Assembly (NCBI GenBank): GCA_964035015.1
Contig: OZ036005.1
Location: forward strand, 4,251,714 to 4,315,713
Length of the DNA: 64,000 nt
Origin: Corallium rubrum
Lineage: Eukaryota; Cnidaria; Anthozoa; Scleralcyonacea; Coralliidae
Direction: 5' to 3'
Shown: piece by piece, positions 5,178 to 59,104 of the stretch
How the letters are laid out: every line of letters begins with the position of its first letter
Numbering within the stretch: position 1 is the first letter of the stretch
Made by a program: the position numbers and the translations under genes
The notes under the pieces: model-generated
The model's input: the letters and a program-made list of their open reading frames with translations, nothing else
What the model was told of the DNA's origin: nothing
Database searches by the model: none

Positions 5178-5200
5178 CTTACAACAGAATGATTAAAAAA

Positions 5201-6242: not shown

Positions 6243-6270
6243 TTAAAAACGATAAAAAGTCTGTCTACCA
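6243..6270 (+). promoter_or_regulatory. candidate promoter of the 407-residue gene
   Basis: The string TTAAAAACGATAAAAAGTC lies about 40 nt upstream of the ATG at 6293. The element B gene has the related TATAAAAACGGTCAAAGTC at the equivalent place (33893-33915, minus strand). Conservation in otherwise diverged intergenic DNA suggests a TATA-like core promoter. Confidence 0.35.
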
Positions 6271-6292
6271 GCCTTAGAAAAAAAAATTCACG

Positions 6293-8445: not shown

Positions 8446-8630
8446 TTTTTAAAAAATAACACAAACAAGCGTTTTATACCCTCTTTTTTATTTACATTAC
8501 ATTTAAAATTCCAAACAAAAAAAACTATTTAAAACTTATCTCATTACATCTTAACCCAAAACTAGATATCAAATTTTTTAAAATACAAATTTAAATCAAA
8601 TTTAAAAAAATCCCGAAAAAAATACCAAAT

Positions 8631-9934: not shown

Positions 9935-9985
<51 letters not shown>

Positions 9986-22154: not shown

Positions 22155-22344
22155 TAAAAAAAAAATTAAAAATTGTAATTTTTTACTATTAATAAACATT
22201 CTTTACAATTTCTGTGGGTTTTTTTATTCTAATTTAAAAAAAAATATTACTAATAATCATACGTATAAGCTTTCACAATCACTTCAACCCGGCTATCGAG
22301 AGCGGTACATCCGGTGCTACTGCTATACTACCGCTCCGTCACGA

Positions 22345-22678
22345 ACTCTTCGCGCGAAAAAACATACACATACAAGCAGACAACACACACACACACAGAA
22401 CAATAAACCACCACCACACACCACCCAATCTCCTCCTCTCCCCAACTCAAAACCACCCACCCACCCCCAAAAAAAACACCCCATACCCCTCCTAAAAAAC
22501 AATATGCTAATGAAGAGAGCCAACACCTACTCTCGATCTCCCCCCGGCCAAAATTATGCTAATTTTATACATCATCGATGCTGATTGGCTAATGAAAAAA
22601 ATACTGCAATCTGATTGGTTAAAAACTAGTGCCAGACCCCAACACATAAAAAAAAATATATCTTTCTCCACCACTACT
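22345..22678. repeat. right terminal inverted repeat of element A
   Basis: The last about 180 nt (AATATGCTAATGAAGAGAGCC ... ACTAGTGCCAG ... CCACTACT) match the right TIR of B (57776-57957) and, inverted, its left TIR. The outer half is C/A-rich with CACACA and CCCACCC tracts. The end ACTACT fits the AG...CT termini known for Polintons. Confidence 0.88.
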
Positions 22679-24723: not shown

Positions 24724-25077
24724 TTAGACGATGTTCGCTAGCCGTCTGCGATAGATACCCATAGGCAAGCGTGGTTCACCTTTGGAATCTCTCTCAACGT
24801 GTAGCGAAACTAATTTGGCCTCGAATACCATCTGTCTGGCGGCGCGAAGTGCTTCGATCCCGATGTGTCTGGTCGCAAACGTTGTCATTGTTGTCGAAGT
24901 CGGGTCGGATTGCTTGTATATGCGTACCGAGTATTCTGTTTCCGGAGCGTCGCAGTTTCTCATGCGAACCCTGACGTGGTCATGGTGCGTTGATAAGGGC
25001 GACAGTTCGTGGCTGTGGTCTGTCAGCGTGATCTCGGCCGAATCAGCGTCGTACAAGTGCAGGGAATCTTTCGGCAC
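24724..25077 (-). CDS. staphylococcal-nuclease-like (SNase) domain protein, partial
   Basis: About 117 residues. VRVRMRNCDAPETEY matches the V-R-(L/M)-R-x-x-D-A-P-E-T core of SNase/thermonuclease domains, with the later helix ALRAARQMVFEAKLVSL and DSKGEPRLPMGIY in the usual order. SNase enzymes cut DNA/RNA using Ca2+ and an Arg-Glu-Arg set; the first Arg and the E of APET are present. No ATG at its 5' end; it likely begins at a spliced exon. In the second X copy only a remnant remains (about 61925-61975). Confidence 0.65.
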   Translation of the reverse strand: MPKDSLHLYDADSAEITLTDHSHELSPLSTHHDHVRVRMRNCDAPETEYSVRIYKQSDPTSTTMTTFATRHIGIEALRAARQMVFEAKLVSLHVERDSKGEPRLPMGIYRRRLANIV

Positions 25078-25116
25078 GTTAATCAGGTCTGGTAAGGCTA
25101 CCGGACCTGATTAACG
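25077..25116. repeat. perfect hairpin at the nuclease gene 5' end
   Basis: CGTTAATCAGGTC at 25077-25089 is the exact reverse complement of GACCTGATTAACG at 25104-25116, with an inner GGTA/TACC pair. It directly adjoins the (TA)n tract and could be an element terminus or a regulatory hairpin. Confidence 0.8.
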
Positions 25117-25121
25117 GACGC

Positions 25122-25216: not shown

Positions 25217-25331
25217 TATAAGAACTGACGCGATGTTGACAGTAGGGAGCTCTAGCTTTGACTTAGAGTACGAGGACAGCCGCAAATTTAAATAGAATAC
25301 TTCAGCAGAAAAAACACCGTAGTCGTACATG
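25217..25331. other. left flank of Polinton B with candidate target duplication
   Basis: Ends in ACATG (25327-25331) next to the TIR start AGTAGTCATG. The same ACATG begins at 57958 after the right TIR, giving a 5-bp target duplication. The flank should be continuous with 57963 onward in the uninterrupted X element. Confidence 0.6.
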
Positions 25332-25655
25332 AGTAGTCATGTAACAATGTATATTTTTTTTAATGTGTTGGGGCCTGGCACTAGTTTTTAACCAATCAGA
25401 TTGCAGTATTTTTTTCATTAGCCAATCAGCGTCGATCATGTGTGTAATTAGCATAATTTTGGCCGGGGGGTGTTCGAGAGTGGGTGTTGGCTCTCTTCAT
25501 TAGCATGTTGTTTTTTTAGGAGGGGTGGGGGTGGTTTTTTTTTGGGGGTGGGTGGGGTGTGGTGCGAGGAGGTGTGTTGTATGGGTGGTGTGTGTGTGTG
25601 GTGTGTGTTTTTTTTTTCTTGTGGTTTATTGTTCTGCGTGCGTGTGTTGTGTGCG
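25332..25655 (+). repeat. left terminal inverted repeat of element B
   Basis: Reverse complement of 57633-57957 with few differences. Contains GTTGGGGCCTGGCACTAG, AACCAATCAGATTGCAG (two CCAAT/ATTGG-type boxes, AACCAATCAG and AGCCAATCAG), CCGGGGGGTG and G/T-rich tracts. The CCAAT boxes may act as promoter elements for terminal transcription. Confidence 0.95.
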
Positions 25656-25880
25656 GATTGGTGGTTGTATTGATTTATTATCATAACAATACAAACACCG
25701 ACACATGCAACATTTATAATAATATGAATATCGCAAATATCGGTGCTGTTTTGATAAGCGATGTTTCTTCTCAGCAGCAGCAGTAGTAGTAGTGCTACAC
25801 CAGATGTATCGTTCTCGCTAGTCATGCTGAAGTGATTGTGAAATCTTAATCGCGTGATTATTTAGCGATATTTTTTATGT
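25656..25880. other. spacer inside left TIR, no gene seen
   Basis: AT-rich DNA with AGCAGCAGCAGTAGTAGTAG near 25774-25793. No supported ORF. It leads into the hairpin array. Confidence 0.5.
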
Positions 25881-25947
25881 AAATGAAGATGTAGAAAAAA
25901 AAGGGAATTAGTAATTCTTTAAAGTTTGTATCTAAAACATCTTTATC
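25881..25947 (+). ncRNA. hairpin H1
   Basis: AATGAAGATGT pairs with ACATCTTTAT; the inner part GGAATTAGTAATTCTT extends the stem. Confidence 0.5.
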
Positions 25948-26025
25948 CATTTTTTAAAAAAATCTTTTTTTTTTTGGTTTCTTTTGATGATTGTGAAATT
26001 TTAGACGTGTGAATAATATATGTAA

Positions 26026-26084
26026 ATGAAGTTTTAGCAAAGACGGATAGCAGTAAATACTTGCCGTTCTTGCTAAAGCTTCAT
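26026..26084 (+). ncRNA. hairpin H2
   Basis: 5' arm ATGAAGTTTTAGCAAAGACG pairs with 3' arm CGTTCTTGCTAAAGCTTCAT around a 17-nt loop; only one true mismatch apart from G-U pairs. Sister of H3. Confidence 0.7.
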
Positions 26085-26322
26085 CTAAAATATTTATTGT
26101 AATCTTCCATTCTTGTAAGTCTATCCAACAGTCTTTCTTTCTTTCTTTCTTTCTTTCTTTGACTTCTTCACATCAGTTTTAAAGTTTTCTTTAGGAGACC
26201 CAGAGCACAGAAAAAAAAAAAAAAAAATGTGATTTTTTTGCGCGTTGGTTCACCAAGAGAAAAAGCTTTGTCTTCGTTTTTTATACGTCTTTAGCAACAT
26301 GTGAATAATAATATATATGTAA

Positions 26323-26381
26323 ATGACGTTTCACCAAAGACGGATAGCAGTAAATACTCACCGTTCTTGGTAAAGCTTCAT
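26323..26381 (+). ncRNA. hairpin H3
   Basis: Same size and loop as H2. CACCAAAGACGG pairs with CCGTTCTTGGTA; the G-C pair of H2 (AGCAA/TTGCT) is C-G here (ACCAA/TTGGT), a compensatory change. Confidence 0.7.
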
Positions 26382-26435
26382 CTAAAATATTTATTGTAAT
26401 CTTCCATTCTTGTAAAAAAACTATTTTTTCTTACG

Positions 26436-26481
26436 GAAATACCATCACACAGAATTATGAAATTTTGTGTGTTAGTATTTC
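26436..26481 (+). ncRNA. hairpin H4
   Basis: GAAATACCATCACACA pairs with TGTGTGTTAGTATTTC, two mismatched positions. Confidence 0.6.
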
Positions 26482-26583
26482 GAGAGAATAGTAGTAGCAG
26501 CATAGGGTGTGTTTGCTAAAAGGACATCTTGTTTTTCTTCTTCTTTATCACCAGCTGAAGAATATCTTTTGTGTTTGAAAATA

Positions 26584-26649
26584 CTATGAGGACATTATGA
26601 AAAAGCTATATAATTATAATATATCTTTTATCGTAATGTTTTCAAATAG
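26584..26649 (+). ncRNA. hairpin H5
   Basis: GAGGACATTATG...AAAAG pairs with CTTTTATCGTAATGTTTTC with a small bulge; AT-rich loop. Confidence 0.5.
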
Positions 26650-26705
26650 CAATCCTTTTCTTCTTCGTCGTCTCTGTAAAGAATATCTTTTGTGTTTGAA
26701 AAATA

Positions 26706-26781
26706 CTATTGAAATACTAGTATAAAGAAGAAGACTAATAGCTAGTTTTACAAGTCTTCTTTTATCATAGTGTTTCAATAG
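26706..26781 (+). ncRNA. hairpin H6
   Basis: Long stem: CTATTGAAATACTA...AGAAGACT pairs with AGTCTTCTTTTAT...GTTTCAATAG, about 29 positions per arm, 17-nt loop. One of the best folds. Confidence 0.7.
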
Positions 26782-26836
26782 CAAGCCTTTTCTTCTTCTT
26801 CTTCTTCTTCTTCGTCGTCTTGTGCTTGAAATATTA

Positions 26837-26889
26837 TCGAAATACTATCTGAAATAGTATTTGAAATCCTATTTGAAATTGTATTTCAA
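26837..26889 (+). ncRNA. hairpin H7
   Basis: TCGAAATACTATCTGAAATA pairs imperfectly with TATTTGAAATTGTATTTCAA; built from a repeated GAAATA motif, so weaker evidence. Confidence 0.4.
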
Positions 26890-26932
26890 CAACATAGTAG
26901 CAGCGATGTGTGTCTTTTTTTTCGATATTTGG

Positions 26933-26981
26933 GATAAAGTTTTAAAAAAATAATGGTATCACTATTTTTTAAAGCTTTATC
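26933..26981 (+). ncRNA. hairpin H8
   Basis: GATAAAGTTTTAAAAAAATA pairs with TATTTTTTAAAGCTTTATC; one bulge, very short loop. Confidence 0.6.
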
Positions 26982-27046
26982 TAAAATATTGTTTCTTTTC
27001 ATCATTATTGTAATCTTCTTCCTCCATGCTAATGAGTAATGTTAAA

Positions 27047-27117
27047 TAAATAAAGCTTTGGAAAAGAAAGGTCGATCTATTAAATGATAGACAAGTTCTT
27101 TGCCAAAGAGTCATTTA
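27047..27117 (+). ncRNA. hairpin H9
   Basis: TAAATAAAGCTTTGGAAAAG pairs with CTTTGCCAAAGAGTCATTTA; inner GATCTATT/AATGATAGAC adds pairs. Confidence 0.6.
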
Positions 27118-27154
27118 AATAAATCATCTTCCTGTTCTTGTAAATTTCTTTTTT

Positions 27155-27226
27155 GTCTTTAGCAACATGATGAAAGAAGAGAGACCAGCTAGACAAGACT
27201 TTCTTTTATCATCACGTGTTCAAGAC
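27155..27226 (+). ncRNA. hairpin H10
   Basis: GTCTTTAGCAACATGATGA pairs with TCATCACGTGTTCAAGAC with few mismatches; purine-rich loop. Confidence 0.6.
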
Positions 27227-27290
27227 CAATATTCTCGTCGTCTTTTCTTTCTTTAATTTCTTTTGTAATCCTCCATAAACGAAGACAACA

Positions 27291-27353
27291 GGCGAAAACC
27301 TTTCAAGAAAGTGCCAGAGATATTCCGGCAGACTTTTTCCAAAGGTTTTTACC
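27291..27353 (+). ncRNA. hairpin H11
   Basis: GGCGAAAACCTTTCAAGAAA pairs with TTTTTCCAAAGGTTTTTACC; the stem continues with GTGCC/GGCAG. Confidence 0.65.
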
Positions 27354-27452
27354 ACATTTGTTTCTCCTTGTGGTTTCTTTCATCATCATCATCATCATTA
27401 TTGTAATCTTCCATAAACGAGGCGAAAAAAAGCTTTGAAAACAGATCGTGAG

Positions 27453-27500
27453 ACTAGAGAAGGAACGGATATCGCTATCGATACACGTTCCTTCTTTACC
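27453..27500 (+). ncRNA. hairpin H12
   Basis: AGAGAAGGAACG pairs with CGTTCCTTCTTT; inner GATATCGCTATCGATAC may fold further. Confidence 0.5.
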
Positions 27501-27845
27501 CTCGCAATTTGTAATCTTCCTCCCTATGTCTCTCCTTTGTTCTTTTCATTGTAATTATCTTCCCTCCAAAAGCGCTGGAAATGACGGAGTAACCAAGACA
27601 CCATCAGAACCAGAGCTTTGCGAAGGAAGCGCTGGCAAAGATGGTAACCAAGTGCACTGTCAGAGTTGTCTTTTCGGAAGCTTCCAAAAAAAAAAAATTA
27701 GTCTTCTCCGTTACAAGAACAAATGAATAATTATGTCAAGTACTATCCATTCATACTTGTAAATGAGATAAAAAAATAATCTGTTCCGTTTCTTCTTTTT
27801 TTTTCATCCATGTTTCTTCTCAGTTCTTGAAGCAACCAAATAATT
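27501..27845. other. array spacer with direct repeat
   Basis: No good hairpin found. AGCGCTGGAAATGACGG and AGCGCTGGCAAAGATGG form an imperfect direct repeat (27571 and 27628). A short plus-strand ORF here is not supported. Confidence 0.4.
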
Positions 27846-27904
27846 AGTGCCTTCGTCAATTCTGTTGCTTCTTTATGAAAGCATCAGATATTGACGAAGC
27901 CGCC
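27846..27904 (+). ncRNA. hairpin H13
   Basis: GTGCCTTCGTCAATTCTGTT pairs with the 3' arm ending ATATTGACGAAGCCGCC; loop near CTTTATGAA. Very regular stem. Confidence 0.7.
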
Positions 27905-27955
27905 ATTTAAAAAAATAAATCAATGGAATCTTTATCTCTTGGTGGTAATATATAT

Positions 27956-28020
27956 AAATGAAGCTTTACGAAAAGATGGTAATCAGTAAATGATAACCAT
28001 TTTCTCTTAGAGCTTTATTT
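27956..28020 (+). ncRNA. hairpin H14
   Basis: AAATGAAGCTTTACGAAAAG pairs with TTTTCTCTTAGAGCTTTATT and ATGGTAA with TAACCAT; related to H2/H3. Confidence 0.65.
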
Positions 28021-28030
28021 AAATATTTTT

Positions 28031-28234
28031 TTATTCATTAAAATATTTTTTACGCCAACGTTCTTGTCTATTTTTACAATCGCATCTGTAGTAGATTTTA
28101 CATATGACATCTTTGGGATAATTTCTTCGGCAAAAATCACAAAATACTTCATAAACATCACATTCACGGCACGTATAATATAACATGTGATTCACATTTT
28201 GAATTTGATTATTGCATCTGTAACAATCATTCAT
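28031..28234 (-). CDS. third zinc-ribbon-like small protein
   Basis: 67 residues, MNDCYRCNNQIQN..., with CxxC, CRECDVYEVFCDFC and CDC clusters spaced as in the zinc-ribbon protein at 34232-34447, and the same tail type (NRQERWRKK). It is isolated from that gene by 6 kb and embedded between hairpins H14 and H15. Confidence 0.7.
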   Translation of the reverse strand: MNDCYRCNNQIQNVNHMLYYTCRECDVYEVFCDFCRRNYPKDVICKIYYRCDCKNRQERWRKKYFNE

Positions 28235-28278
28235 GGTGACGACGACGACGATCTCTCATTTACAAGAATAAAAAGAGG

Positions 28279-28322
28279 ACCCAGACAGCCTTATTTTTAC
28301 ACCTGTAAATAAGAGCATGGGT
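28279..28322 (+). ncRNA. hairpin H15
   Basis: CTTATTTTTACA pairs with TGTAAATAAG with outer ACCCA/TGGGT; short and less certain. Confidence 0.4.
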
Positions 28323-28402
28323 TAGCATTCAACATGCTCAGCATTCAACGTATCTGAAGAATCCATTTGTTCTTCTGGTCGTGCCAGGGTACGTATGACA
28401 CA

Positions 28403-28459
28403 TCGTCAGAGAGTCAATTTAAAGAGTTGTTAACACTCTTTACGTTTTCTCTCTGACGA
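28403..28459 (+). ncRNA. hairpin H16
   Basis: TCGTCAGAGAG pairs with CTCTCTGACGA and TTTAAAGAGT with ACTCTTTACG; internal loop of about 5 nt. Confidence 0.65.
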
Positions 28460-28532
28460 AGGGTCTTCGTTTGCACGATCTTTTCTTTCTTCTTCTTTAT
28501 TCCAATTTAAGAGTGTTTTTTTAAGCTCTCTC

Positions 28533-28580
28533 AATGAATTCCCGACGTCAAATTATGTAAACTTGATGACGGAATTCATT
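28533..28580 (+). ncRNA. hairpin H17
   Basis: AATGAATTCCCGACGTCAA pairs with TTGATGACGGAATTCATT; 11-nt loop ATTATGTAAAC. Followed by CAGCTAGCTAACCTACACC. Confidence 0.7.
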
Positions 28581-28642
28581 CAGCTAGCTAACCTACACCA
28601 GATTTCTTCTTTTCCAATTGAGGAGTGTTTTTAAGTTCTCTC

Positions 28643-28691
28643 AATGAATTCCACACATCAAATTATGTAAACTTGCTGTACGGAATTCATT
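28643..28691 (+). ncRNA. hairpin H18 (duplicate of H17)
   Basis: Same stem ends and identical loop as H17, with the same CAGCTAGCTAA downstream; the mid-stem bases differ on both arms. Confidence 0.65.
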
Positions 28692-28740
28692 CAGCTAGCT
28701 AATCTACACCAGATTTCTTCTTCTTCAATACATCAAACCT

Positions 28741-28857
28741 ATGGGTAACGCAAAAATTGTATTTGACGATTTACGACAAAGAAATACAATTAAACGATAC
28801 TCACCCACCACGCTCTGGAAAGCGATGTTCTTCTATGCACTTCAAAAAAACACATGA
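28741..28857 (+). CDS. possible 38-residue ORF
   Basis: MGNAKIVFDDLRQRNTIKRY... with a basic/aromatic C-terminus. MGNA would suit N-myristoylation. No homologue in the window, so doubtful. Confidence 0.25.
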   Translation: MGNAKIVFDDLRQRNTIKRYSPTTLWKAMFFYALQKNT

Positions 28858-28879: not shown

Positions 28880-29160
28880 TTATATTTCTGGGGAAAACGG
28901 TGAAATGTCGATTCCTAGTATTTAGGTAAAAATTACGTATTCCTATAATAATTGGATTCTGGGAAAAACGGTGAAATTTCGATTCTTAGTGAAAAAAAAT
29001 ATGTTAATTGGTTCTGAGAAAAGTAATATTTATATAATTCTGGGAAGAAAAAAAAAACGGTGAAATTTCGTATTCTTAGTAAATAGGTAAAAATTACGTA
29101 TTCCTATGGTTGTGGGTGAAGTAAAATATGGGTAAAACGGTGAAATTTTATTGACAAGCG
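28880..29160. repeat. degenerate repeats of about 60-90 nt
   Basis: GGTGAAATTTCG(TA)TTCTTAGT plus AAATTACGTATTCCTAT recur about four times (28898, 28966, 29059 and 29137). Similar to 19164-19275 in element A. The rest of the gap to 29470 shows no supported gene. Confidence 0.6.
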
Positions 29161-29470: not shown

Positions 29471-29806
29471 ATGATTTTTTTCTGGTGCATATTGTTCTTT
29501 TTTACAGCATTACCTAGCGTTGCTGGTGATCCAGAATGTTGTTATTGCGATTACGACAAGTCCCGCGTTTATCATATATCACATGGTGATGGTGAGAGTA
29601 AGCAGTTACTTGTCACGGATGTAAATGAGCTGAAGGATTGCGAGACGAAGAAGGATGGAAGCGATTACGACAAGTCCCGCGTTTATCATATATCACATGG
29701 TGATGGTGAGAGTAAGCAGCTACTTGTCACGGATGTAAGTGAGCTGAAGGATTGCGAGAAGAAGAAGGAAGGAATTTCAGAAGGAACAAACAAAGACAAA
29801 CAATGA
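29471..29806 (+). CDS. secreted protein with two 38-residue repeats
   Basis: 111 residues from ATG 29471. A clear signal peptide (MIFFWCILFFFTALPSVAG) is followed by DPECCYC and two almost identical modules (DYDKSRVYHISHGDGESKQL..., residues about 27-64 and 65-102) encoded by a 114-bp direct repeat (from 29549 and 29663). The C-terminus is Lys/Glu-rich. Secretion is inferred; no family recognised. Not seen in element A's visible part. Confidence 0.65.
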   Translation: MIFFWCILFFFTALPSVAGDPECCYCDYDKSRVYHISHGDGESKQLLVTDVNELKDCETKKDGSDYDKSRVYHISHGDGESKQLLVTDVSELKDCEKKKEGISEGTNKDKQ

Positions 29807-30617: not shown

Positions 30618-31478
30618 ATGGATGAATTTTACAAATTTGCCATGGAGAACAAGGTCGACATGAAGGAAATAATGAGGCTACAATCCGAAAGAATCGCGAA
30701 AGAAGAACGAGCAGCAGCAGCCGAGTTGAAACGCAAACAACATCTCGCGAGATTAGAAAGGGAACGGGCTGCTGCGATCGAGAATTATCGATTAAAGGAT
30801 AGGTGGGACAGCGTCTCTTCGACTCCTTCGATACTCGCTTCTTCTTCGACGATACTACCCGTCTCTTCGACCCCTTCGACGATGCCGGCTATTTCTTTGC
30901 TTCCTTCCATGTGCGAAATTTACAACGAAATGAGCGCTGCTGACAACATCCCGAATTTATCACCTTTATCTGGTTGTGGTGGTGGTAGTGATTCACCCAA
31001 CGCATTTGTGGATGAAGTTAACGACAACAACGACGACGCCGCCGTAGAAGTTATTGATGAGAGTTCTCAACAGCTAGCTACATCCAACCTTTTCAAATAT
31101 ATATATACATCACCCGTGGTGGAATCTCCTCAAACAGCGGCTGTACGACCTCAGGGGAAAAGTATCGAAGTTTTGAGGGAGGCATACATGGATTTGGAAC
31201 GAGGTAGATTAGAAGAACACGTAGACAAGAGAAATTATAGACGATCACTTTTTTTAAAAAAAAAGGAACAAATAGTAGAATCATACGGTATACTTAGTAG
31301 ACTTGATAACGACATTGTAGTAACGGCTGAAAATAAATTTAAAGAATTGAAATTTATTTACAACGAAAAACAAGAATATTTAACGCATTTAGTCACTGTA
31401 AAAGAGAAATTAGCAACGCTTGAAATGATCGCATCCAGATATATATTATTAGATAAAGCTAGCAACAAAAAAAAGTAA
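30618..31478 (+). CDS. coiled-coil / low-complexity protein
   Basis: 286 residues from ATG 30618. The N-terminal coiled coil is Arg/Ala/Glu-rich (RIAKEERAAAAELKRKQH), followed by a Ser/Thr/Pro-rich linker (VSSTPS repeats), an Asn/Asp tract and a conserved C-terminal helical domain starting near TAAVRPQGKS. The C-terminal domain is the part kept in element A at 8631-9106; here the whole gene is intact. Possibly a scaffold-like virion or regulatory protein; unproven. Confidence 0.75.
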   Translation: MDEFYKFAMENKVDMKEIMRLQSERIAKEERAAAAELKRKQHLARLERERAAAIENYRLKDRWDSVSSTPSILASSSTILPVSSTPSTMPAISLLPSMCEIYNEMSAADNIPNLSPLSGCGGGSDSPNAFVDEVNDNNDDAAVEVIDESSQQLATSNLFKYIYTSPVVESPQTAAVRPQGKSIEVLREAYMDLERGRLEEHVDKRNYRRSLFLKKKEQIVESYGILSRLDNDIVVTAENKFKELKFIYNEKQEYLTHLVTVKEKLATLEMIASRYILLDKASNKKK

Positions 31479-31614
31479 AAGTAAGTTTAAGATGAAAAAT
31501 TTTTTGTGTATTTTTTTGGGTAACCTAGTTTGAAATTTGTAATGAGATGTAAATAAAGGGTTATATATATTATTGACGTTTGTTGTGTATGTTACTTTTT
31601 TTTTTAAAATAAAA

Positions 31615-32031
31615 ATGGAATTTATAATAGAGGAGGTGAATAAAAGCGGGGTTTTTACACCAGATGGTACATTTGAGAAAAAAATTAAAGAAAACATTTC
31701 TATACAAAGACAATTATTAAAAAATATATCCCTTAATATCTCGAAGGAGCAATTCTTGGATATTTACAAAAAGATTCAACGTTATACTATCGGGGATATT
31801 ATCGCATATTATTCGTTGTTAATAGTGTTTTTTGAAGGTGTAGAGAAAAACCAGGAATTATTTATTCGTGATATTACAAAAATCACGTGTCAACATCTTA
31901 AAGATTGTTGTCTCGACGTGAACTTTGACAACGCTTATTGGGGTGTAACGACAACGAAATTTCAAAGGAGCAACTCCTGGGTAAAGATACTATCGGGGAT
32001 ATTATCGCATATCGTTGCTAATTGCGTTTGA
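31615..32031 (+). CDS. small protein upstream of Fic, altered C-terminus
   Basis: 138 residues. The first about 108 residues match the 114-residue gene 8101-8445. At about 31966 a 70-nt fragment of its own sequence (AAGGAGCAA-TCCTGG, ACTATCGGGGATATTATCGC) is repeated, giving a new tail and separating the stop from Fic, which in A it overlaps. Confidence 0.7.
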   Translation: MEFIIEEVNKSGVFTPDGTFEKKIKENISIQRQLLKNISLNISKEQFLDIYKKIQRYTIGDIIAYYSLLIVFFEGVEKNQELFIRDITKITCQHLKDCCLDVNFDNAYWGVTTTKFQRSNSWVKILSGILSHIVANCV

Positions 32032-32050
32032 AGGAGGAGGACGAAGAGAA

Positions 32051-32644
32051 ATGGATTGGGAACATCATTTAAGAATCAAAATATTTTCTTATTACACCGT
32101 ACTCATGGAGGAAAACGAAGAGAATTTGTTTTTTTTTTACAAGTGTGCAAAATATGCACGGGGATTAAGTGATTTTTACCGTTTAAAAAAATCAGATCGA
32201 GACCAAATGCAAATAAGTGAGATATGCGTTTATTTACATAAGCGTTGCATGAAAAATTACAGCGCGGGGAAATATTCTCTAAATTACAGATTTTGCGGTA
32301 ATCACAATCCACCAGCGCCTGACTATATAGAATTATACATGGAATTATTAGATGAACATTATCGTAGAATTAGAATTGAGAGTGACGTATTGAATTTGAC
32401 ACCTACACGAATATATTATATATTCGAATATATACATCCGTTTGGTGATGGTAATGGACGCGTGGGAAAAGCTTTACACGCTATATTGAGAAATAATTTA
32501 ACGTGCGGTGTAAAGTCTTTTAAACAACATAAAATGTTATGCGAACAACTAGAAATATTACAATGTAAAAAAGGTCAACGTGTTTTTGAAGATAGAAAAT
32601 CACATCTGCATACGTTACTTAATTTGAAAGATATATTAGAGTAG
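32051..32644 (+). CDS. Fic-domain protein
   Basis: 197 residues from ATG 32051 (MDWEHHLRIKIF). Fic loop HPFGDGNGRVGK as in the A copy, conserved including the Lys in place of the last Arg. One residue shorter than A (ESDVLN against ESDDVLN). Convergent with 32636-33862, overlapping by 9 nt. Its retention in both copies with an intact loop indicates selection. Confidence 0.88.
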   Translation: MDWEHHLRIKIFSYYTVLMEENEENLFFFYKCAKYARGLSDFYRLKKSDRDQMQISEICVYLHKRCMKNYSAGKYSLNYRFCGNHNPPAPDYIELYMELLDEHYRRIRIESDVLNLTPTRIYYIFEYIHPFGDGNGRVGKALHAILRNNLTCGVKSFKQHKMLCEQLEILQCKKGQRVFEDRKSHLHTLLNLKDILE

Positions 32645-33862
32645 TTTCTGTAAATAATTAATAAAATTATCGCTACGATATACGGAGGGAAAGAAATTAC
32701 GAATAAAAGTCAGCATGGTCTCGTTGACGCCGCTCATGTACTCGACAGTTATTGCGTGTGTTGTTGTTGGATACGTGAACACATATTCACTGGGTGTAAA
32801 ATTGGATAATATGACTTTTGGTTCTGTTATTGTTGTTAAGTTTTGTTTTATTATTTTTTTGATCGATTTTTTTGACACAGTATCATAATCAAACATTTCA
32901 AATTCTTGTGTGTCTAACCGTGATGAATTTTTTTCCTCACAATCGTCCAAAAAGCACATTTCATAATCTATATCTTCCTCTAATTCCTCTTTTGAAATAA
33001 TATCATAAATATCGTAAATATACGATTGTTTCTGAATCATCGCGCGGGGATTGTGTTTCTCACAAAAACAAACAAAGCAACAGGTTAAATTTAACAAAAA
33101 TCGTACACTTATTTCACCGTCTTTGCATTTAAGTGCTTGGTGGAAAAAATTCGGTGATTTACAATACAGATATACCGCTATAGTTACGCCTACATCACCG
33201 TACTTTCCATGTATGTATACGAATACGTCGTATAATGAAATACATGTTTTGTTGTTCCAACAACCACGATATATCCAGAAAGAGTAGGGTGTATGCATGC
33301 GGTTGTTATTTAGAAAAGCTATACGGTGATAAATTTCAGTGTGCCATGGCTCAAAGTCGGCTGGTATTATAGGAAAAAAAAAAGAATTATATATATGACA
33401 TCCTCTTTTGGGAAAAAATGAATAAATAAATCGTCGATCTCTTACTAATACTATATGACGTCCTTCATTTATAACACACCAGTTTCTATCGTGTTCATAC
33501 ATATAGGGAATTGTCATATAAAATTGTTCATTTCTCGCGATGACGTGACGTAATTTTCCACACCCGGGTAATACATTCCCACCATAGTATGTCCAAAAGT
33601 GATATGGAATACACCAACAAACTGTGGGGTTGGCGTCGGGGTCTTCTTGTAGTTGTGGAACTAGTCTTATGTAACCCCCTTCGTAGATATTCACTAACCC
33701 CATCAACCAGTACAGCAATCCAATTTCTCGGTTGGGGAAAAAACGAAAACATGTGTACAACAGCACGCTTCTTAATAATTCACTTATAGTTGTTTCTTTT
33801 GAACGTTTACTGTCTTCATTTATTTCATCTTTTTCTTCTTCGTCTCTTTGGCGTTTACTCAT
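32636..33862 (-). CDS. family 1 protein, 408 residues
   Basis: Homologue of 6293-7516: FFPNREIGLLYWLMG, FVCFCEKHNPRAM, LDDCEEKNSSRLD. The N-terminus is charged (MSKRQRDEEEKDE). Paralogue within the same element: 51003-52196. Divergent from 34033 across a 170-nt gap. Confidence 0.82.
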   Translation of the reverse strand: MSKRQRDEEEKDEINEDSKRSKETTISELLRSVLLYTCFRFFPNREIGLLYWLMGLVNIYEGGYIRLVPQLQEDPDANPTVCWCIPYHFWTYYGGNVLPGCGKLRHVIARNEQFYMTIPYMYEHDRNWCVINEGRHIVLVRDRRFIYSFFPKRGCHIYNSFFFPIIPADFEPWHTEIYHRIAFLNNNRMHTPYSFWIYRGCWNNKTCISLYDVFVYIHGKYGDVGVTIAVYLYCKSPNFFHQALKCKDGEISVRFLLNLTCCFVCFCEKHNPRAMIQKQSYIYDIYDIISKEELEEDIDYEMCFLDDCEEKNSSRLDTQEFEMFDYDTVSKKSIKKIIKQNLTTITEPKVILSNFTPSEYVFTYPTTTHAITVEYMSGVNETMLTFIRNFFPSVYRSDNFINYLQKLL

Positions 33863-33892
33863 CGTGAATATTTTTTGTTGTCTACGGTTAGA

Positions 33893-33915
33893 ACGGACTT
33901 TGACCGTTTTTATAA
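33893..33915 (-). promoter_or_regulatory. candidate promoter of 32636-33862
   Basis: TATAAAAACGGTCAAAGTCC on the minus strand, about 30-50 nt before the ATG, conserved with 6243-6270. Confidence 0.4.
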
Positions 33916-34032
33916 TTTAATTTCTCCAATTTGAATCTCTGGGTTTTTTTTTAAACAAAATTATTATAATTAGTAGGGTATAAAAAAACTGGGTTTTTTT
34001 TTTTATATACTTATTTTAAAACAAACATCATC

Positions 34033-34275
34033 ATGAATACATCCAAAAGCGATGAGGAAGAGCGTGCTGAAATTTTACAAAAAATGCGTGATTTAAAAGA
34101 GTTAACTACAAAATATGTTATTAGTTATCGCAGCGTGCAGCAAGCTATGACGGCGTACGCTTTAAAAGGAAAAAAAGACAGTGAATTGTTGAATTGGGAT
34201 CATTACCGCACGATACTTCAGGAAATTTCAAATGATGTTTTGCATAATATGCCGTCAACAAACAGTGGGGATTGA
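34033..34275 (+). CDS. small helical conserved protein
   Basis: 80 residues (MNTSKSDEEERAEIL). Matches 5843-6112 with QAMTAYALKGKKDSELLNWD. Overlaps the next ORF by 44 nt. Confidence 0.72.
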   Translation: MNTSKSDEEERAEILQKMRDLKELTTKYVISYRSVQQAMTAYALKGKKDSELLNWDHYRTILQEISNDVLHNMPSTNSGD

Positions 34276-34447
34276 ACGGTGTTATTTTACGTGTAGAAAA
34301 TGTGATGTGAATATAATGTATTGTGATTTATGCAGAAGAATTTCTCCATTAGTAATTGGAATACGTGTCTCGTGTTCTCGATGCGTTTGTATAAAAAGGA
34401 AACAACGGTGGGGTTTGCAATTTGACAGAGACGACGTGTTATTATGA
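34232..34447 (+). CDS. small Cys-rich zinc-ribbon-like protein
   Basis: 71 residues; same ten-cysteine pattern as 5671-5886 (CIIC, CYFTCRKC, YCDLC, CSRCVC). Stop overlaps the start of the following gene. Confidence 0.75.
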   Translation: MMFCIICRQQTVGIERCYFTCRKCDVNIMYCDLCRRISPLVIGIRVSCSRCVCIKRKQRWGLQFDRDDVLL

Positions 34448-34923
34448 TGAAACGTTCATTCATATGTACAGCAGATTTTGATAAAGCCGTGTCTATGCAG
34501 GATGCTAGAAGAAAGCAAAAGAAAGAAGACGAAGAAGCAGAAGAAGATCCCACGTCGACATTATCACCATCCTCATCACCGCTAGCAGTAGCCGAACTAG
34601 AAATACACCCTCAAGAGATCACCACGTATGAACGGTGTATTTTGGAGTTAATAAACAAGAAGATCAACAAGGTGTATTTTGATGCCTGTGGTTGTGTTAT
34701 TACACAGGAAGAAAAAGTCAAGCTGTTTCTCGCAACCGCTTTGAAAGAACTAGATCGTGAAGAACTGCGTCGCAATTTTCTCGAAGATCTTAAACAAGCC
34801 GTACCAAACTATGATATAACGCTTACCTCTAATATATTAAAAATGATTAGATGTGACACGCACATGCGTCAATTATGTGAAGATAATTATCATTATTTTA
34901 AAGATAAATTGCTGGATTTTTAA
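34447..34923 (+). CDS. conserved protein with acidic/Ser linker
   Basis: 158 residues (ATG 34447; a second ATG at 34444 is also possible). MKRSFICTADFDKAV, a charged linker with EEDPTSTLSPSSSP, then CGCVITQEEKVKLF. Homologue of 5201-5674. Confidence 0.77.
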   Translation: MKRSFICTADFDKAVSMQDARRKQKKEDEEAEEDPTSTLSPSSSPLAVAELEIHPQEITTYERCILELINKKINKVYFDACGCVITQEEKVKLFLATALKELDREELRRNFLEDLKQAVPNYDITLTSNILKMIRCDTHMRQLCEDNYHYFKDKLLDF

Positions 34924-34947
34924 TTTTTTTTGTCATTCTGCTGTAAG

Positions 34948-35580
34948 ATGTATTCGCGTTATGATAACGAGTTTAACAAAATTGTAAATCATACAGATTT
35001 ATTTGGTGTAAAAGGAGAAGAGATATTAAAAAATGTCACGCATATTATGGATTGTGAATGTTATCGCATTAATTCGTTGGTTTATTTTCGCGAGGTTTCG
35101 TTGATTTATATGGACAGTGGGAAATACGAAATGTTTCATTGTTTTATTGAAGACGCTCAAGATTACGTGAAAATGACTAAAGCCGATAAACGCACTATTT
35201 ACCATCAATTTCAGATTCACGGGTTAAAATTATATAATTATCGAAAAAATCCACGATATTACAATCAAGCGGAATTTTTAGACGAATTTAAAAAAAAATT
35301 TAGTGGTAGACCCGAGATTTTATTTGGTTATAAAGGGGGTAAAATTGAATCTGATTTATGCGCGTTAACGGGTGTGGACTGTGTAAATTTAGAACATTTT
35401 GGCGTGGTAAAATATGAAAAATTAGTTAGATATTTTCTTAAAGATATAAAGGTATGCAAGGAACATGTAAAACATAATGTTCATTGTTCTTTATACGAGG
35501 TTAGGCTTTTCGCAGCACAGGTTGCCGAGTTAACACACGACAGAAAAAAAAGAGATAAAATTTTGCATTCCTATGGCTGA
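34948..35580 (+). CDS. RNase H-fold / Maelstrom-domain-like nuclease candidate
   Basis: 210 residues from ATG 34948. All motif blocks of the A copy are kept: MDCECYRI, FGYKGGKIESDL, CVNLEHFGV and C-x2-H...HCSLYEVRLFA, with only three residues fewer near HVKHNVH. The invariance of these blocks against drift elsewhere supports a functional site. Confidence 0.6.
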   Translation: MYSRYDNEFNKIVNHTDLFGVKGEEILKNVTHIMDCECYRINSLVYFREVSLIYMDSGKYEMFHCFIEDAQDYVKMTKADKRTIYHQFQIHGLKLYNYRKNPRYYNQAEFLDEFKKKFSGRPEILFGYKGGKIESDLCALTGVDCVNLEHFGVVKYEKLVRYFLKDIKVCKEHVKHNVHCSLYEVRLFAAQVAELTHDRKKRDKILHSYG

Positions 35581-36214
35581 TAAAAAAATTATTATAAAAA
35601 ATCCGCGTTTTTGGTTTCATTCAGTAGACGAGTATGGAAAAACACCGGCGAAACGTCCCAACCACGAGTATCATTTTCGAGAACAAAGTGCACGTCAAGG
35701 GGCTATTATCGAACCTTATGTTAATGAGAAAACGAGAGCTATTACTTTTACATCTATAAATTCAGGCTTGAAACATCAAAATGCGTATCCATTTTCTTTA
35801 ACGCGCACTCCCGATTTAAATGCGTGGGAAAAAAGAAAAATAATTGATTCTATAGAAATTAAAATTTCTAAAAATGTGCAGAGTGAAGAAAATGGTAGTA
35901 TTTTCTTCACTATACTTCAAGTAGAAAAAGCTTTGCTAAAAGTAACTACTCCTTATGTTGCGAACCATATAACATCGGATCAAATAATCCCCCGAAATTC
36001 AAAAGACGCATATTTTAGTTTACCTATGTTTTCAAGTTCAGTTAAAATGGAGAATTTAAAATATGATTTATCTCGAGACGACGATTTAATTTTACTTCAA
36101 CATATTGAATTTAAAGAATTCATTAAAACGAAAAAGAATGTAAAATACGGTGTAGCTCACCTACCTTACGTAACGTATGAAACATGTGTAATTTATTCCG
36201 ATAATTTTTTTTAA
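35573..36214 (+). CDS. conserved 213-residue protein
   Basis: Intact here, broken in A (3904-4543). Starts MADKKIIIKNPRFWF and overlaps the nuclease gene by 8 nt. Beta-rich central part (AITFTSINSG, NAYPFSLTRTPD) and a C-terminal LPMFSSS...YDLSRDDDLILL. Could be a virion protein; no family recognised. Confidence 0.75.
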   Translation: MADKKIIIKNPRFWFHSVDEYGKTPAKRPNHEYHFREQSARQGAIIEPYVNEKTRAITFTSINSGLKHQNAYPFSLTRTPDLNAWEKRKIIDSIEIKISKNVQSEENGSIFFTILQVEKALLKVTTPYVANHITSDQIIPRNSKDAYFSLPMFSSSVKMENLKYDLSRDDDLILLQHIEFKEFIKTKKNVKYGVAHLPYVTYETCVIYSDNFF

Positions 36215-36293
36215 AAATAAAGATTTGTTGAAACCAACAAAAAAAAAAACTACATCTTTGTTTTTTTTCTCTATAATTTATTTTGATTTTTAT

Positions 36294-36572
36294 TTATATT
36301 TTTTTTAAAATTATTTTAAATAATATTTTTTGGGTGCCATTCTCCCACCAAATTGTTGATATGTGTCTACACTCGGCTTGCACCAAACCACCAAATTGTT
36401 TTTTTTTAAATTTCTTCACTTTCACTACCCCGTTTTTTATTTTCTTTAAAATCTTGTTTTTGGTGGTTTGAAAATCTTTCATAATATTCATGACTTTTTG
36501 AATTTTTTTACCACGACCACCTCTTTGTCTTTTTTTTCCTCGAAAACCCGTGTTTCTCCGGTTTCTACTCAT
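36294..36572 (-). pseudogene. small basic QxGG protein, frameshifted tail
   Basis: Starts MSRNRRNTGFRGKKRQRGG; includes QFGGLVQ. After about residue 65 the frame differs from the A copy, which has QFGG and a Lys/Tyr tail, owing to one extra base; the present tail looks random. ATG overlaps the SET stop by 4 nt. Confidence 0.55.
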
Positions 36573-37156
36573 TTTTTTTTCGTTTTATAATTAATTTTAT
36601 TACTTTTTAAAGTAGCACGCGGCCAGTATTCGTCACCGTAGTCGGCAAAAATTTCCTGATGGGGTTTTATACCCGCGGTTGCATGTAATTTAAATCGATT
36701 ATTGTGTTTAGTTGTTCCTGTAAAACAAGCGTTATTTTTATGTCGCGACCCCTTCGCATCATTACAGAATCGAGCCGCTCCATCCGTTGATTTATAAGCA
36801 TCGACACAGTGACGGGGACCATCGCATAAGCTATATTGTGCGATTGTTTTAGCACCGTATTTTCGATCCATACGTTTTACTGTGGTTCTTTCACCTGTGT
36901 ACGTAGAGACGGGTGTATCGCGTCTAAAAGGTTTTTTCCAAGCGTACAGCCCTTTGCCTGCGTTTGGAATCTGTGATTTTTTAACACGTAAGTTATCTTC
37001 TTTTGCTAGATGAATCCAACATTTATGCGTGTGAGCTGTTCTTTTTCGACATCGTTTTCTTTTTAACGTGAAGCTTCGACATTGTAAAACAGCGCGTACA
37101 TTTTGCGAAATTAAACTCATTTTTCGACCACCTCTATTCACACCTTGTTTAACCAT
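36569..37156 (-). CDS. SET-domain protein
   Basis: 195 residues; SQIPNAGKGLYAW, RFCNDAKGSRHKNNACF and EIFADYGDEYWPR as in 2984-3553. Tail differs after WPR (extra Lys/Asn). Gene order with 37171-37509 is conserved. Confidence 0.88.
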   Translation of the reverse strand: MVKQGVNRGGRKMSLISQNVRAVLQCRSFTLKRKRCRKRTAHTHKCWIHLAKEDNLRVKKSQIPNAGKGLYAWKKPFRRDTPVSTYTGERTTVKRMDRKYGAKTIAQYSLCDGPRHCVDAYKSTDGAARFCNDAKGSRHKNNACFTGTTKHNNRFKLHATAGIKPHQEIFADYGDEYWPRATLKSNKINYKTKKK

Positions 37157-37170
37157 TTTTTTATTTTTTT

Positions 37171-37509
37171 TTAGAATATTGTTCTTATTCCCATGTAAAG
37201 ATCCTGGTTATTTTCTATTTTCTCTCTCTTTGTGATAAATTTTATTAAACATTCTATCTTATACAATATATCTGAAGGTATGTGTAATATTTTTTTTCGC
37301 ATATCATTAAAGCGTTGCGTTAATTCAAAACTTGAAATAAATATTAATTGTTTTCCTTCGTTATTTTGAAATTCTTGAAGACAGTCTTGTAAGATAAAAG
37401 GAGAGAATAATATTTCTTCATCATTATCGAGAATTTCATATCCCATGTAAGTATGTTCGTTTTCTTTATTTCTTAAATAAACCTCGATGTGAATGTGGCC
37501 GTAATCCAT
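37171..37509 (-). CDS. conserved Polinton protein, unknown
   Basis: 112 residues from ATG 37509 (MDYGHIHIEVYLRN), the same length as 2626-2964; the frame extends upstream to 37566 but A supports the inner start. Confidence 0.75.
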   Translation of the reverse strand: MDYGHIHIEVYLRNKENEHTYMGYEILDNDEEILFSPFILQDCLQEFQNNEGKQLIFISSFELTQRFNDMRKKILHIPSDILYKIECLIKFITKREKIENNQDLYMGIRTIF

Positions 37510-37617
37510 GCTTGCGTGGTAATTACTAAAAAAACAAAACCTGTCACTGTTTGTTATATGTATCATTTATTTATTTTTATTTTTTTTTTTAATTTTAGTT
37601 TTTTTTTTGAAAAAAAA

Positions 37618-37785
37618 ATGGGTGAAATGTGTTCTAAAGATAAACCCTTTTTTACATTTAACTGTATAAATATACGTGATTCAGAAAACGTAGTGATCGA
37701 TCGTGTTGATGGTGAAGTAAAAAACGAAGAAGAAGAGAGAAGAAAATTTCCTTTTTTTTTTAGAAGTAAAAGAAAAAATGGCTGA
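37618..37785 (+). CDS. small ORF overlapping the polymerase frame
   Basis: 55 residues, MGEMCSKDKPFFTFNC, ending FFFRSKRKNG with 8 nt overlap of the next ATG. Same arrangement as 2356-2532. Confidence 0.55.
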   Translation: MGEMCSKDKPFFTFNCINIRDSENVVIDRVDGEVKNEEEERRKFPFFFRSKRKNG

Positions 37786-38344
37786 AAAAAACCCTTATGT
37801 GTTTACAGATGAAGATGTGAGTGAATTAAGGGCATTATTAGAAGAACGTAAAAAAAGAGGAGATGAAAAAAGAGTTGAAGAAGATTTTAAAACTAATATT
37901 ATAAGTTCTTCTTATAATGAAAAATTTAAATTTTCTCAAAAAACACTACACGTTTCGATTGCGCGAAAATCAGGTATGAATTTTATTGCCTTCATTCATT
38001 CGTTACGTGTAGTGTTTACTTACTTGCTGAATGTAGCTCGAGCGTCTACAAGTTCAGAGAATGATTACGTGCGTTTTATTTTCTCACACGCTCCAAAATC
38101 TTATTTTTCAACCGCTGTTCTTCAACTTAAAGATTTTAACGTCAATTTTTTATTAAATATTTTTGAAAAAATGATGCAGAGCAACCGTGCGTTGATCGCT
38201 GACGGGTGGGAATCAAACGTGGTAATTCAGACTTTTCCCCACACGTATAATAAAAATAAAAAAACAACAAACAATTGGGCAGAAAAAGAATATATCAGCA
38301 ATTGGGCAGCGGAGGTGGCGATGATGATGAGGGGGCGGTGGTAA
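37778..38344 (+). pseudogene. polymerase N-terminal segment, separated by frameshift
   Basis: 188 codons (MAEKNPYVFTDEDVSEL). In element A this segment is in frame with the polymerase; here three small deletions totalling 5 nt between 38253 and 38340, relative to A, shift the frame, leading to a TAA at 38344. It may still be made as a separate polypeptide. Confidence 0.75.
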
Positions 38345-38375
38345 AAATGTGGAAAAATACGGTCGCGATCAACGC

Positions 38376-41300
38376 ATGGGTGTTTTTTCCATAGTGTGTG
38401 ATGGGTTAAACAAAATCATTAAAAATTGTTGCTTCGCAGTTAGTTTATTAGCGGGTTTATCGTGGTTAAAAAAAGACAGGCGGTATGTGCAAATGGAAAG
38501 ATCCCCACATACAGCTGTCGATACACTGTACACTATTGATGAGGTTCGTGATATTTATGACAAATGCGGTATAGTTGAAGGATGTTGTGTAGGGGGTAAA
38601 CATTACGGGGGTATTTATCAGAATTTTCTTAAACGGCAGGGTGTTGATTTAGTAGTATATTCGGATCAATTTGATAACGATATAGTGTATGATTCGCGAT
38701 GCGATAAAGAGGGTAATTTAATTAAGTTAACCAACAACATTGTTTGTTTGTGGCTAAATAATAAACATTACGATGTCGTTTTAAGCATGGTTAAATTTTC
38801 GAAGTTACCCCCGAGCAAATTTTGCGTGAAATGCATGAATTATTACTTAAATCATGAGCGTAAAGACACGCATATGTGCCATAATCATTTGACATGCCAA
38901 CGTTGCTATGAACAATCTGAATGTCATCGCACCATCGACTGCAAAATTGAGTGTTCCAATTGTAACATTTTATTTTATAATAATAAATGTTTTTTAGCTC
39001 ATTTGTCGAACCGTGTTTTTTTCCCTCAACAGGGTAATTACGGAAAATTAACACCGTGTAGTTACTTATTTTTTTGCCAAACTTGCGCTAAGATTGTACC
39101 GCGTTTTCGTTTTTTTTCTGCGAAGAATACGAAAAAGCATGATTGTAATAAGCAGTTTTGTCACCACTGCAACGACTATAAGGATAAAACGCATTTTTGT
39201 TATATGAAAACCGTGAAAACAAACAAACAAAGTAAACAACCTACTTTATTTTTTTTTGATTTTGAAACGCGCGTCGATGAGAATAAGTTAATGGTTCCGT
39301 ATTATTGCGTTGTGCAAAAAGTGTGTCGTAAATGTGAAAATATTGAGTTTAAAAAAAGTAAAAAACACATCGCGAGTGATAATATTCAACCTTGCTGTGG
39401 AAGACGTGAATTTGTTTTTCAAGGGAGCGATACTGTAAAGGAATTATGCGAGTTTCTATTAGCACAAGATAATTCTGTTTGGTTAGCGCATAATGGGGGG
39501 CGATTTGACACTATTTTTATTTTTCAATATCTCATTAATGAGAAAAAAATTTACCCTGACACTATAATGAATGGTTGTAAAATAATGATGTTGAAAATCC
39601 CTGATAAGAAAATAACTTTTTTCGATAGCTATTCATTTTTACACATGAAATTGTCTAAAATTCCAGAAACAATGGGTCTTGAGGAATTAACGAAGGGATT
39701 TCATCCGTATAAATTTACAGATTTATCCTATGTAGGGGATATTGTACCGCGTGATTATTTCGATCTTGAAAATATGGAGGAGAAAACAAAAGCTAAATTT
39801 GAAGAATGGTATTTGAAAAAAAAAGAAAAACCATATGTATTTGAAGAAGAAATGTATTATTACTGTAGCTCGGACGTCGATATTTTACGAAAAGGATGCA
39901 TTAAATTCGCTATGTTTATGCGTGATACTTCTGGCGTCGTCCCTTTTTACGACACAGAATGTATCACCATAGCAAGTCTGACGTTAAAAGTATTTCGTAT
40001 GAATTTTTTAAGAGACAAATGTGTCGGAATCATACCCGCTAGCGGGTATAGGGGTCGTGCTAATCAAAGTGTTGTAGCGCTAATGTGGCTAGATAAAATA
40101 AACGCAGAAGAAGCAAACGGTGCGTTAGAGTATAAATGTTCGCGAAATGGTGAAAAGCAAATTTTGGGTCGTTATGTCGACGGTTTTTACGAGAACACCG
40201 TCTATCAATTTCACGGTTGCTATTTTCACGGGTGCGCGAAATGTTATTATCCCTACGAAACGAATCGTTTAAATAATACGAAATTTACGCATCTTAACGC
40301 GGCGACAAAAAAATTCACGCATGACATGGAAAAAGCCGGTTATAAAGTAATAGAAAAATGGGAATGTGATTTTCAAGAAGAATGTAAATTCACGAAAAAA
40401 AATATAATTGAAAAAAAGATTTTTTACAGCGCTTATCTTCCGTTAGAAGTAAGAGATGCGCTTTACGGTGGGCGAACATCACCTGTTTGCTTATTTAAAA
40501 ACACAAACACGGATGAAAAAATTAATTACGATGATTTCACATCTTTATACCCCTACGTTCAAAAAGCCAACAAATTCCCCGTCGGTCATCCAACGATATA
40601 TATTAAAGAAGAATGTGAGCGTGTGAAAATAGCTGAAGTATTCGGTTTAGTAAAATGCCGTATTTTACCGCCGCAACACCTGTATTTTCCCGTTTTACCC
40701 GTGCGTCTTAACGACCGGTTAATATTTCCTTTGTGTCACGCGTGTGCAAGCAAAATTCAATTAACACCGTGTACGCATAACGAAGATGAACGGTGTATTT
40801 CGGGGACCTGGTCTAGTGTAGAAGTAAATAAAGCTATTGAAAAAGGTTACAAAATCATGGAAACTTATGAAATTTACCATTACCCGCGTCAGGAGAGAAT
40901 TTTTCAAGAGTTTGTAAATTGTTTTTTAAAAATAAAACAGGAGGCGAGCGGTTTTCCCGACGAATGTTATGACGGCGATAAAAATCTAATCGATTCCGAA
41001 GTTGATAAATATATCGCTGACTACTATAGGAACGAGGGTATTTTATTAGAAAAACAGAAGATAGCCTATAATCCGGGTTTACGAGCTACAGCGAAAAATA
41101 TATTAAATTCACTTTGGGGTAAATTTGCACAAAACGATAATAATACAAAAGTCGATTTTTTATCCGATTACCACGAATTATTAAGACTAGCGAACGATCC
41201 GAATGTAGATTTAACTTCGACTGATTTTGTTAACGAAAACACCTTACGTGTCACTTATCAAAAAACCGATGTCGTTACTACCCCGTTAAGAACGGGTAAC

Positions 41301-59101: not shown

Positions 59102-59104
59102 GGC

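Follow-up and report, generated by a model that had tools for sequence, protein, structure and literature searches.

Clusters of microRNAs (miRNAs) are encoded by large DNA viruses (herpesviruses and others), and the primary transcripts of animal miRNAs (pri-miRNAs) carry a downstream CNNC motif, about 16-18 nt from the site of Drosha cleavage, as well as a basal UG. Animal miRNA genes are defined by small-RNA reads with exact 5' ends and 3' overhangs of 2 nt. Adenoviruses, whose VA RNA keeps the small-RNA machinery of the host busy, are held to be related to the Polintons, a group thought to be ancestral to several lineages of eukaryotic DNA viruses. To our knowledge, no miRNA cluster is known in a Polinton. 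Here we describe an array of 21 stem-loops adjoining the left terminal inverted repeat (TIR) of a Polinton/Maverick-like element, element B, in 64,000 nucleotides of DNA from Corallium rubrum (assembly GCA_964035015.1, contig OZ036005.1, positions 4,251,714 to 4,315,713 of the forward strand). This whole stretch is called the window, and all coordinates below count from its first letter. Judged from its sequence, the array is a candidate for a Polinton-encoded, pri-miRNA-like cluster, a reading to which we assign a probability of about 0.5.

Like the viral miRNA clusters, the array comprises many pre-miRNA-sized, paralogous and fast-diverging hairpins in a gene-poor zone; unlike them, it lies beside the TIR of a Polinton-type element, shows no strand preference and is known here from sequence alone. 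It resembles the polycistronic pri-miRNA clusters of animals in its stem length of about three turns, its close spacing and its downstream CNNC, whereas the upper stem of one family of its hairpins (family 1), which would give the mature RNA, is less alike among paralogues than the lower stem. If transcribed, it would share with adenovirus VA RNA the character of an element-coded structured RNA entering the small-RNA pathway, although VA RNA is one or two RNA polymerase III transcripts of ~160 nt, and the array consists of some 20 short hairpins, each separate, with runs of T both inside them and in the spaces between.

Local folding was scanned over the whole window with sliding 80-nt folds on both strands against 40 dinucleotide shuffles, the check that an earlier, sequence-only reading of this DNA had named for its proposed hairpin cluster. 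The sole exceptional stretch on both strands was 25.7-28.7 kb. In the two 1-kb bins within 26-28 kb, z was below -3 at 20-24% of positions on each strand, compared with 10-16% in the bins 25-26 and 28-29 kb (the former including a palindrome outside element B), 8-10% in the bin 57-58 kb at the right end of the element, and 0-8%, mostly 0-4%, in the remaining bins. Peaks with z < -4 number 36 when counted separately, and 19 of them begin within 25600-28740. A fixed stem-loop rule made 23 calls in 25660-28740 (3.08 kb) and 69 elsewhere in the window outside the right-end hairpin block, whereas 200 dinucleotide shuffles of the array gave a mean of 2.5 calls and a maximum of eight. The cluster is thus real, and the about 18 hairpins that had been placed at 25881-28691 correspond to the 21 listed here, the limits fitting h3-h23. 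Runs of T, TCTT and TTC are present in the array region. Such runs would speak for chance, low complexity or insertions of miniature inverted-repeat transposable elements (MITEs); taken together, these explanations have a negligible probability. For the array as a whole, chance and low complexity are ruled out by the excess of calls over shuffled sequence, and MITE copies by the arms, which differ between hairpins outside small families.

The fixed rule recovered 19 of the 22 listed left hairpins (h1 and h3-h23); h5 was called with different partners, and h3 (weak, -11.4) and h22 were uncalled. Its other three calls fell on the inner TIR (25796-25882), on a stretch over a small open reading frame (ORF; 28129-28215) and on 28733-28817, and at the right end it called R1 but not R2. 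The stems measure 22-33 bp with a median of 29 (24 hairpins, the right-end pair included), and the hairpin centres are spaced at a mean of 134 nt (SD 41; h1-h23, with h2 and the one large gap counted). The minimum free energy (MFE) index ranges from 0.74 to 1.66 over 23 hairpins including h2, and pairing a hairpin's own two arms yields -23.6 on average over the 23 listed hairpins, compared with -8.7 when arms are crossed. The array hairpins are therefore stable, imperfect, about 30 bp long and better than shuffled sequence, as is expected of miRNA genes. The features are listed in Table 1.

Table 1. Positions in the window of element B, its terminal repeats and the hairpins and other features beside them
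Feature	Positions	Strand	Remarks
Element B, Polinton/Maverick-like	25332-57956	.	TIR self-comparison, target-site duplication, family B DNA polymerase, rve integrase, weak adenovirus-protease match
Outer left TIR	25332-25655		Partner 57956-57633; 97.6% identity over ~330 bp (self-comparison)
Inner, diverged left TIR	25757-25880		Partner ~57363-57235; also matched by right end of element A; is the listed h2 (25796-25881), not an array hairpin
Hairpin h1	25694-25746	.	Minus-strand fold better (-25.4 vs -14.0)
Hairpin array h3-h23	25883-28709	.	Folding scan, peaks, fixed rule
h4	26013-26100	.	Family 1
h6	26308-26397		Family 1
h11	26923-26990		Family 1
h12	27037-27127		Family 1
h19	27949-28027		Family 1
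h8	26587-26644	.	Family 2
h9	26705-26783		Family 2
h13	27155-27226		Family 2
h22	28524-28589	.	Tandem duplicate of h23
h23	28625-28709		Tandem duplicate of h22
CTTC, example of 3' flank motif (in ATTGTAATCTTCC)	26104-26107	+	Downstream of h4
67-aa Cys-rich ORF	28031-28234	-	In sole large gap of array, opposite strand
Right-end hairpin R1	57356-57438	.	z peaks, fixed rule
Right-end hairpin R2	57490-57581	.	z peaks
Lone family-1-type arm and flank	57588-57621	-	Arm 57604-57621, flank 57588-57602; no partner arm called

The array had been described as lying inside the left TIR and in an almost gene-free zone. It begins at the inner edge of the TIR (~25880), outside the TIR proper, and a single hairpin, h1, does lie within, in the gap between the outer and inner left repeats; the zone is indeed gene-poor, but the gap in the array holds the Cys-rich ORF of Table 1, which has no PHROGs match at E ≤ 0.1. 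Directly past the array, at 28886-29150, there are repeated variants of AAAACGGTGAAATTTCG (two copies by repeat detection, further ones by eye). Hairpins R1 and R2, in the right TIR, are an addition to those proposed earlier. They occupy, with the lone family-1 arm, a block of ~260 bp between the outer and inner repeats on the right side of element B; the lone arm matches the 3' arm of h11 at all 18 positions, and its flank matches a left-end spacer at 14 of 15. The window carries a second, related element, A, in whose right TIR the corresponding gap is nearly empty, holding only short sequence; the inner TIR of A has one fixed-rule call (22304-22396), yet no peak with z < -4. Because the gap of A is nearly empty, the hairpin block was either gained in the line of B or lost in that of A. 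Elements that fold as DNA or RNA for some other purpose near the terminus (replication, packaging or transcription punctuation) would suit the position beside both TIRs, but they are quite improbable given that one side has about 20 hairpins, of diverse kinds, and the other just two, with almost none in the matching gap of A.

The hairpins fall into groups of same-orientation similarity: h3/h4/h6/h11/h12/h19 (family 1), h8/h9/h13 (family 2), h22/h23 and h7/h10. Shared motifs combined with differing arms had been noted before, and this holds: outside these small families, arm sequence differs from hairpin to hairpin. The members of family 1 have a common lower stem, with identities of 0.53-0.93 (without a shuffle control, and with lower-stem borders set by eye), and the upper stems of distant members show 0.49-0.68 against 0.44-0.57 in shuffled sequence, about 0.7-3 SD higher; both ranges leave out the recent pair h4-h6 (0.89). 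Most comparisons suggest that the diverged paralogues keep their fold. When random changes equal in number to the differences between paralogues were introduced and the fold energy was compared with that of the observed copy, 14 of the 19 ordered comparisons gave weaker neutral mutants at P ≤ 0.01 on one strand or both (12 of 19 on the + strand and 10 of 19 on the - strand), in a test in which the forward and reverse comparisons of a pair depend on each other, the copies were picked as hairpins, decayed ones being unlisted, and paralogues stand in place of orthologues. The five non-significant comparisons (h4 to h6, h22 to h23, h4 to h12, h19 to h12 and h4 to h11) all run from a more stable to a less stable copy. 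Hairpins h4 and h6 differ by one swap of G-C for C-G, and in the upper stems of family 1 own arms pair modestly better than crossed arms, h3 being unpaired there. The covariance model built from h4/h6/h19 recovered the three sequences it was made from and matched h11, h12 and h15 weakly; it also matched element A at 2115-2207 (E = 0.048) and a further site at 31758-31813 (E = 3.5).

A second kind of evidence, separate from fold strength, comes from the flanks. In 22 hairpins (R1 and R2 counted, h2 as well as the duplicates h6 and h23 excluded), motif starts were counted in a window 43-51 nt from the loop centre in the inward direction. CTTC, which is a form of CNNC, was found there in 9 of 22 hairpins against 1.9 expected, and CNNC in 13 of 22 against 6.0 (in both cases P was printed as 0.000 with 3000 flank shuffles), whereas at the same distance on the outward strand the counts were 0 of 22 and 6 of 22. 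The top CTTC bin is 45-49 nt inward of the loop centre, with 10 instances, and the second highest 5-nt bin has five. By circular shift of the left array alone, CTTC was found in 7 of 20 (null 1.98, P = 0.0052), and 14 control hairpins elsewhere, taken on both strands, gave CTTC in 0 of 28 and CNNC in 8 of 28. R1 and R2, neither of which belonged to the first look at the motif, each carry CTTC in mirrored, inward orientation. The downstream CNNC of miRNA genes is therefore present as an inward enrichment, the Drosha sites themselves being hypothetical here. Assuming a pre-miRNA of ~60 nt, the motif would lie some 13-21 nt past the 3' Drosha cut, roughly around the place of CNNC in animal pri-miRNAs, and it is a hint, at the level of sequence, of microprocessor use.

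Hairpins, density, paralogy, kept pairing and the polar flank motif are direct observations; the way in which a pri-miRNA-like cluster would work is proposed as follows. The cluster would be transcribed inward from the left TIR region, the hairpins of the right TIR forming a small counterpart, and the Drosha/Dicer machinery of the host would cut each hairpin. Each would be marked for cleavage by a processing cassette made up of the shared lower stem and of the CNNC-type flank downstream, and the changing upper stem would supply the small RNA, which may be loaded onto Argonaute and directed at some target. Growth of the cluster may have proceeded through tandem duplication, the upper stems diverging yet staying paired.

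Several results weigh against this proposal. The flank motif was first spotted by eye and a window of 40-50 nt chosen afterwards, in which, as one of 40 tests, CNNC occurred inward in 16 of 23 hairpins (null 7.9, P = 0.002) and outward in 9 of 23 (null 5.6, P = 0.067); the window of 43-51 nt follows from Drosha geometry, yet it was also set after that result. Within it, 9 of the 22 hairpins are without CNNC and 13 without CTTC, and the CTTC motifs of h1 and R1 are homologous TIR sequence. Among the nine hairpins carrying an inward CTTC, the better fold is inward in five and outward in four (h1, h12, h22 and R1). The basal UG is weakly enriched (20 of 23, null 15.7, P = 0.04 in one window; P = 0.10 in a second upstream window). 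A three-way alignment of h4/h6 with h19 contains two both-sided compensatory pairs, a covariation that 59 of 500 shuffles also reach. In the search of the 64 kb with the Rfam covariance models, no match reached the gathering score, and the best sub-threshold match in the array was to MIR847 (E = 0.0043, 28 bits against the 184 needed). Predicted bacterial-type promoters and terminators over the array, irrelevant to a eukaryote, are near the shuffled number (17 vs 12.4 and 2 vs 1.2). Near-perfect matches of array 22-mers to either Polinton or the rest of the window showed no excess (9 of 283 with ≤4 mismatches vs 16 of 566 shuffled), in a search from which low-complexity 22-mers had been removed and whose reach does not include seed-type targets; at three mismatches there were 2 of 283 against 0 of 566, one of the two being h2 matching the inner TIR region.

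The lack of target excess in the window would also suit a structured RNA decoy, in which transcribed hairpins occupy the Drosha, exportin or Dicer of the host and shape is selected but sequence is not. The small margin of the distant family-1 upper stems over shuffled identity, and a fold kept despite divergence, agree with this. A Drosha-type flank motif, however, suits processing at least as well as blocking, and we regard a decoy as improbable.

The array stems also have no favoured strand. Of 24 hairpins, 12 fold better inward and 12 outward (Wilcoxon P = 0.22), with h1, h10, h17 and h20 folding far better on the outward strand. An RNA long selected as a single strand should show an excess of G-T pairs over A-C mismatches, a supporting feature and no formal miRNA criterion. 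Inside the stems there are 30 G-T pairs and 36 A-C mismatches under the stricter counting (54:59 under the looser one); under an assumed G-T share of 70%, the probability of at most 30 in 66 is 3 × 10-5. The favouring of one strand by G-U pairs, a feature of miRNAs, is thus not found in the array stems by either measure. The pre-miRNA-like reading proposed earlier accordingly retains shape, size, clustering, paralogy and the inward-polar CNNC-type motif, and fails on strand preference in folding. Strand symmetry means either that the hairpins are young, or that both strands are used, or that the DNA itself makes and mends them.

The last of these would not require transcription: in protein-primed replication, hairpins near the ends would be made, and re-perfected, by template switching or when displaced single strands fold back. 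Because folding and the G-T to A-C ratio are strand-symmetric, as DNA-level mutation predicts, we hold this origin to be a serious although unlikely alternative. It would fit hairpins that adjoin both TIRs, and their near-absence from the right TIR gap of A would fit local birth. Compensatory swaps can arise by template switching, and the birth of miRNAs de novo by this process would explain both strand-symmetric hairpins and arm-to-arm compensation; such births are known as single events, whereas the array has many hairpins with a polar motif. The narrow range of stem lengths and the mean spacing of 134 nt speak against an origin in the DNA itself, in which an inward-polar CTTC at a set distance has no role, and the remainder of both elements has few stem-loops, though replication there should be alike. 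Even so, some hairpins made in this way could still serve as raw material for new miRNAs.

Element B is bounded by a 5-bp target-site duplication, ACATG, at 25327-25331 and 57957-57961 (ends and duplication read from the sequence), the usual length in Polintons being 6 bp, and has with its TIRs the termini of a Polinton. It encodes a DNA polymerase (38349-41795; Pfam PF03175, 'organellar and viral', E = 2.8 × 10-54), a family B match within which the protein-primed type is not distinguished separately, and a retrovirus-like rve integrase (48729-49625; PF00665, E = 3.2 × 10-10). The integrase has 55 relatives, nine of which, the only ones to carry a species name, belong to the octocoral Paramuricea clavata (51-53% identity), and the closest relatives stand at 75%. 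A candidate adenovirus-type protease (43234-43836; PF00770, E = 0.012) is a weak match under the curated cut-off. Pfam recognised no packaging ATPase or capsid protein among the scanned ORFs of element B, and the Walker A pattern occurs in none of 14 ORFs of A and B. Element B also encodes a Fic-domain protein (32015-32644, +; PF02661, E = 1.1 × 10-10) and a SET-domain protein (36569-37156, -; PF00856, E = 2.6 × 10-6). The ORF at 29471-29806 (+) contains a tandem duplication of 114 bp, begins with what looks by eye like a signal peptide, and has a single PHROGs match of unknown function (E = 0.0006). No protein relatives were found for a neighbouring ORF. Searches for DNA relatives among viral contigs (polymerase and integrase alignments), genome contigs (integrase alignment) and phages (array DNA) found none, in collections of viruses, phages and prokaryotes that carry no evidence of absence in eukaryotes.

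The right limit of element A is at ~22.66 kb, and its left end lies beyond the window. By self-comparison A and B are 76-93% identical in blocks, one half of A being inverted relative to B; this is the polymerase-side half (1-8983 vs 31129-40129), and a CTT-rich repeat of 1.3 kb (9104-10380) is located at the junction. A 436-aa ORF of A (10615-11925) corresponds to two overlapping shorter ORFs in B (45435-46755, -). Outside element B, a near-perfect palindrome with a 4-nt loop (25061-25120, z = -8.1) adjoins a TA array, and in the flank an ORF for a Parvovirus NS1-like helicase (59508-60434, -; PF01057, E = 4.5 × 10-19) sits between repeat copies at 58418-59545 and 61975-63089 (96%).

If the hairpins are born in the DNA itself, the locus would serve as a natural hot spot at which hairpins arise, informative on the origin of new miRNAs. 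If they are processed, element-coded miRNA clusters would be extended to the Polintons. We suggest, tentatively and as something rather doubtful, that Polinton-type elements can carry a fast-renewing miRNA cluster of their own, transcribed inward from the TIR, with a fixed cassette of lower stem and CNNC and an upper stem replaced repeatedly, as a small-RNA arsenal against host genes or rival elements. Processing of the array would add a small-RNA layer to the contest between integrated virus-like elements and their animal hosts.

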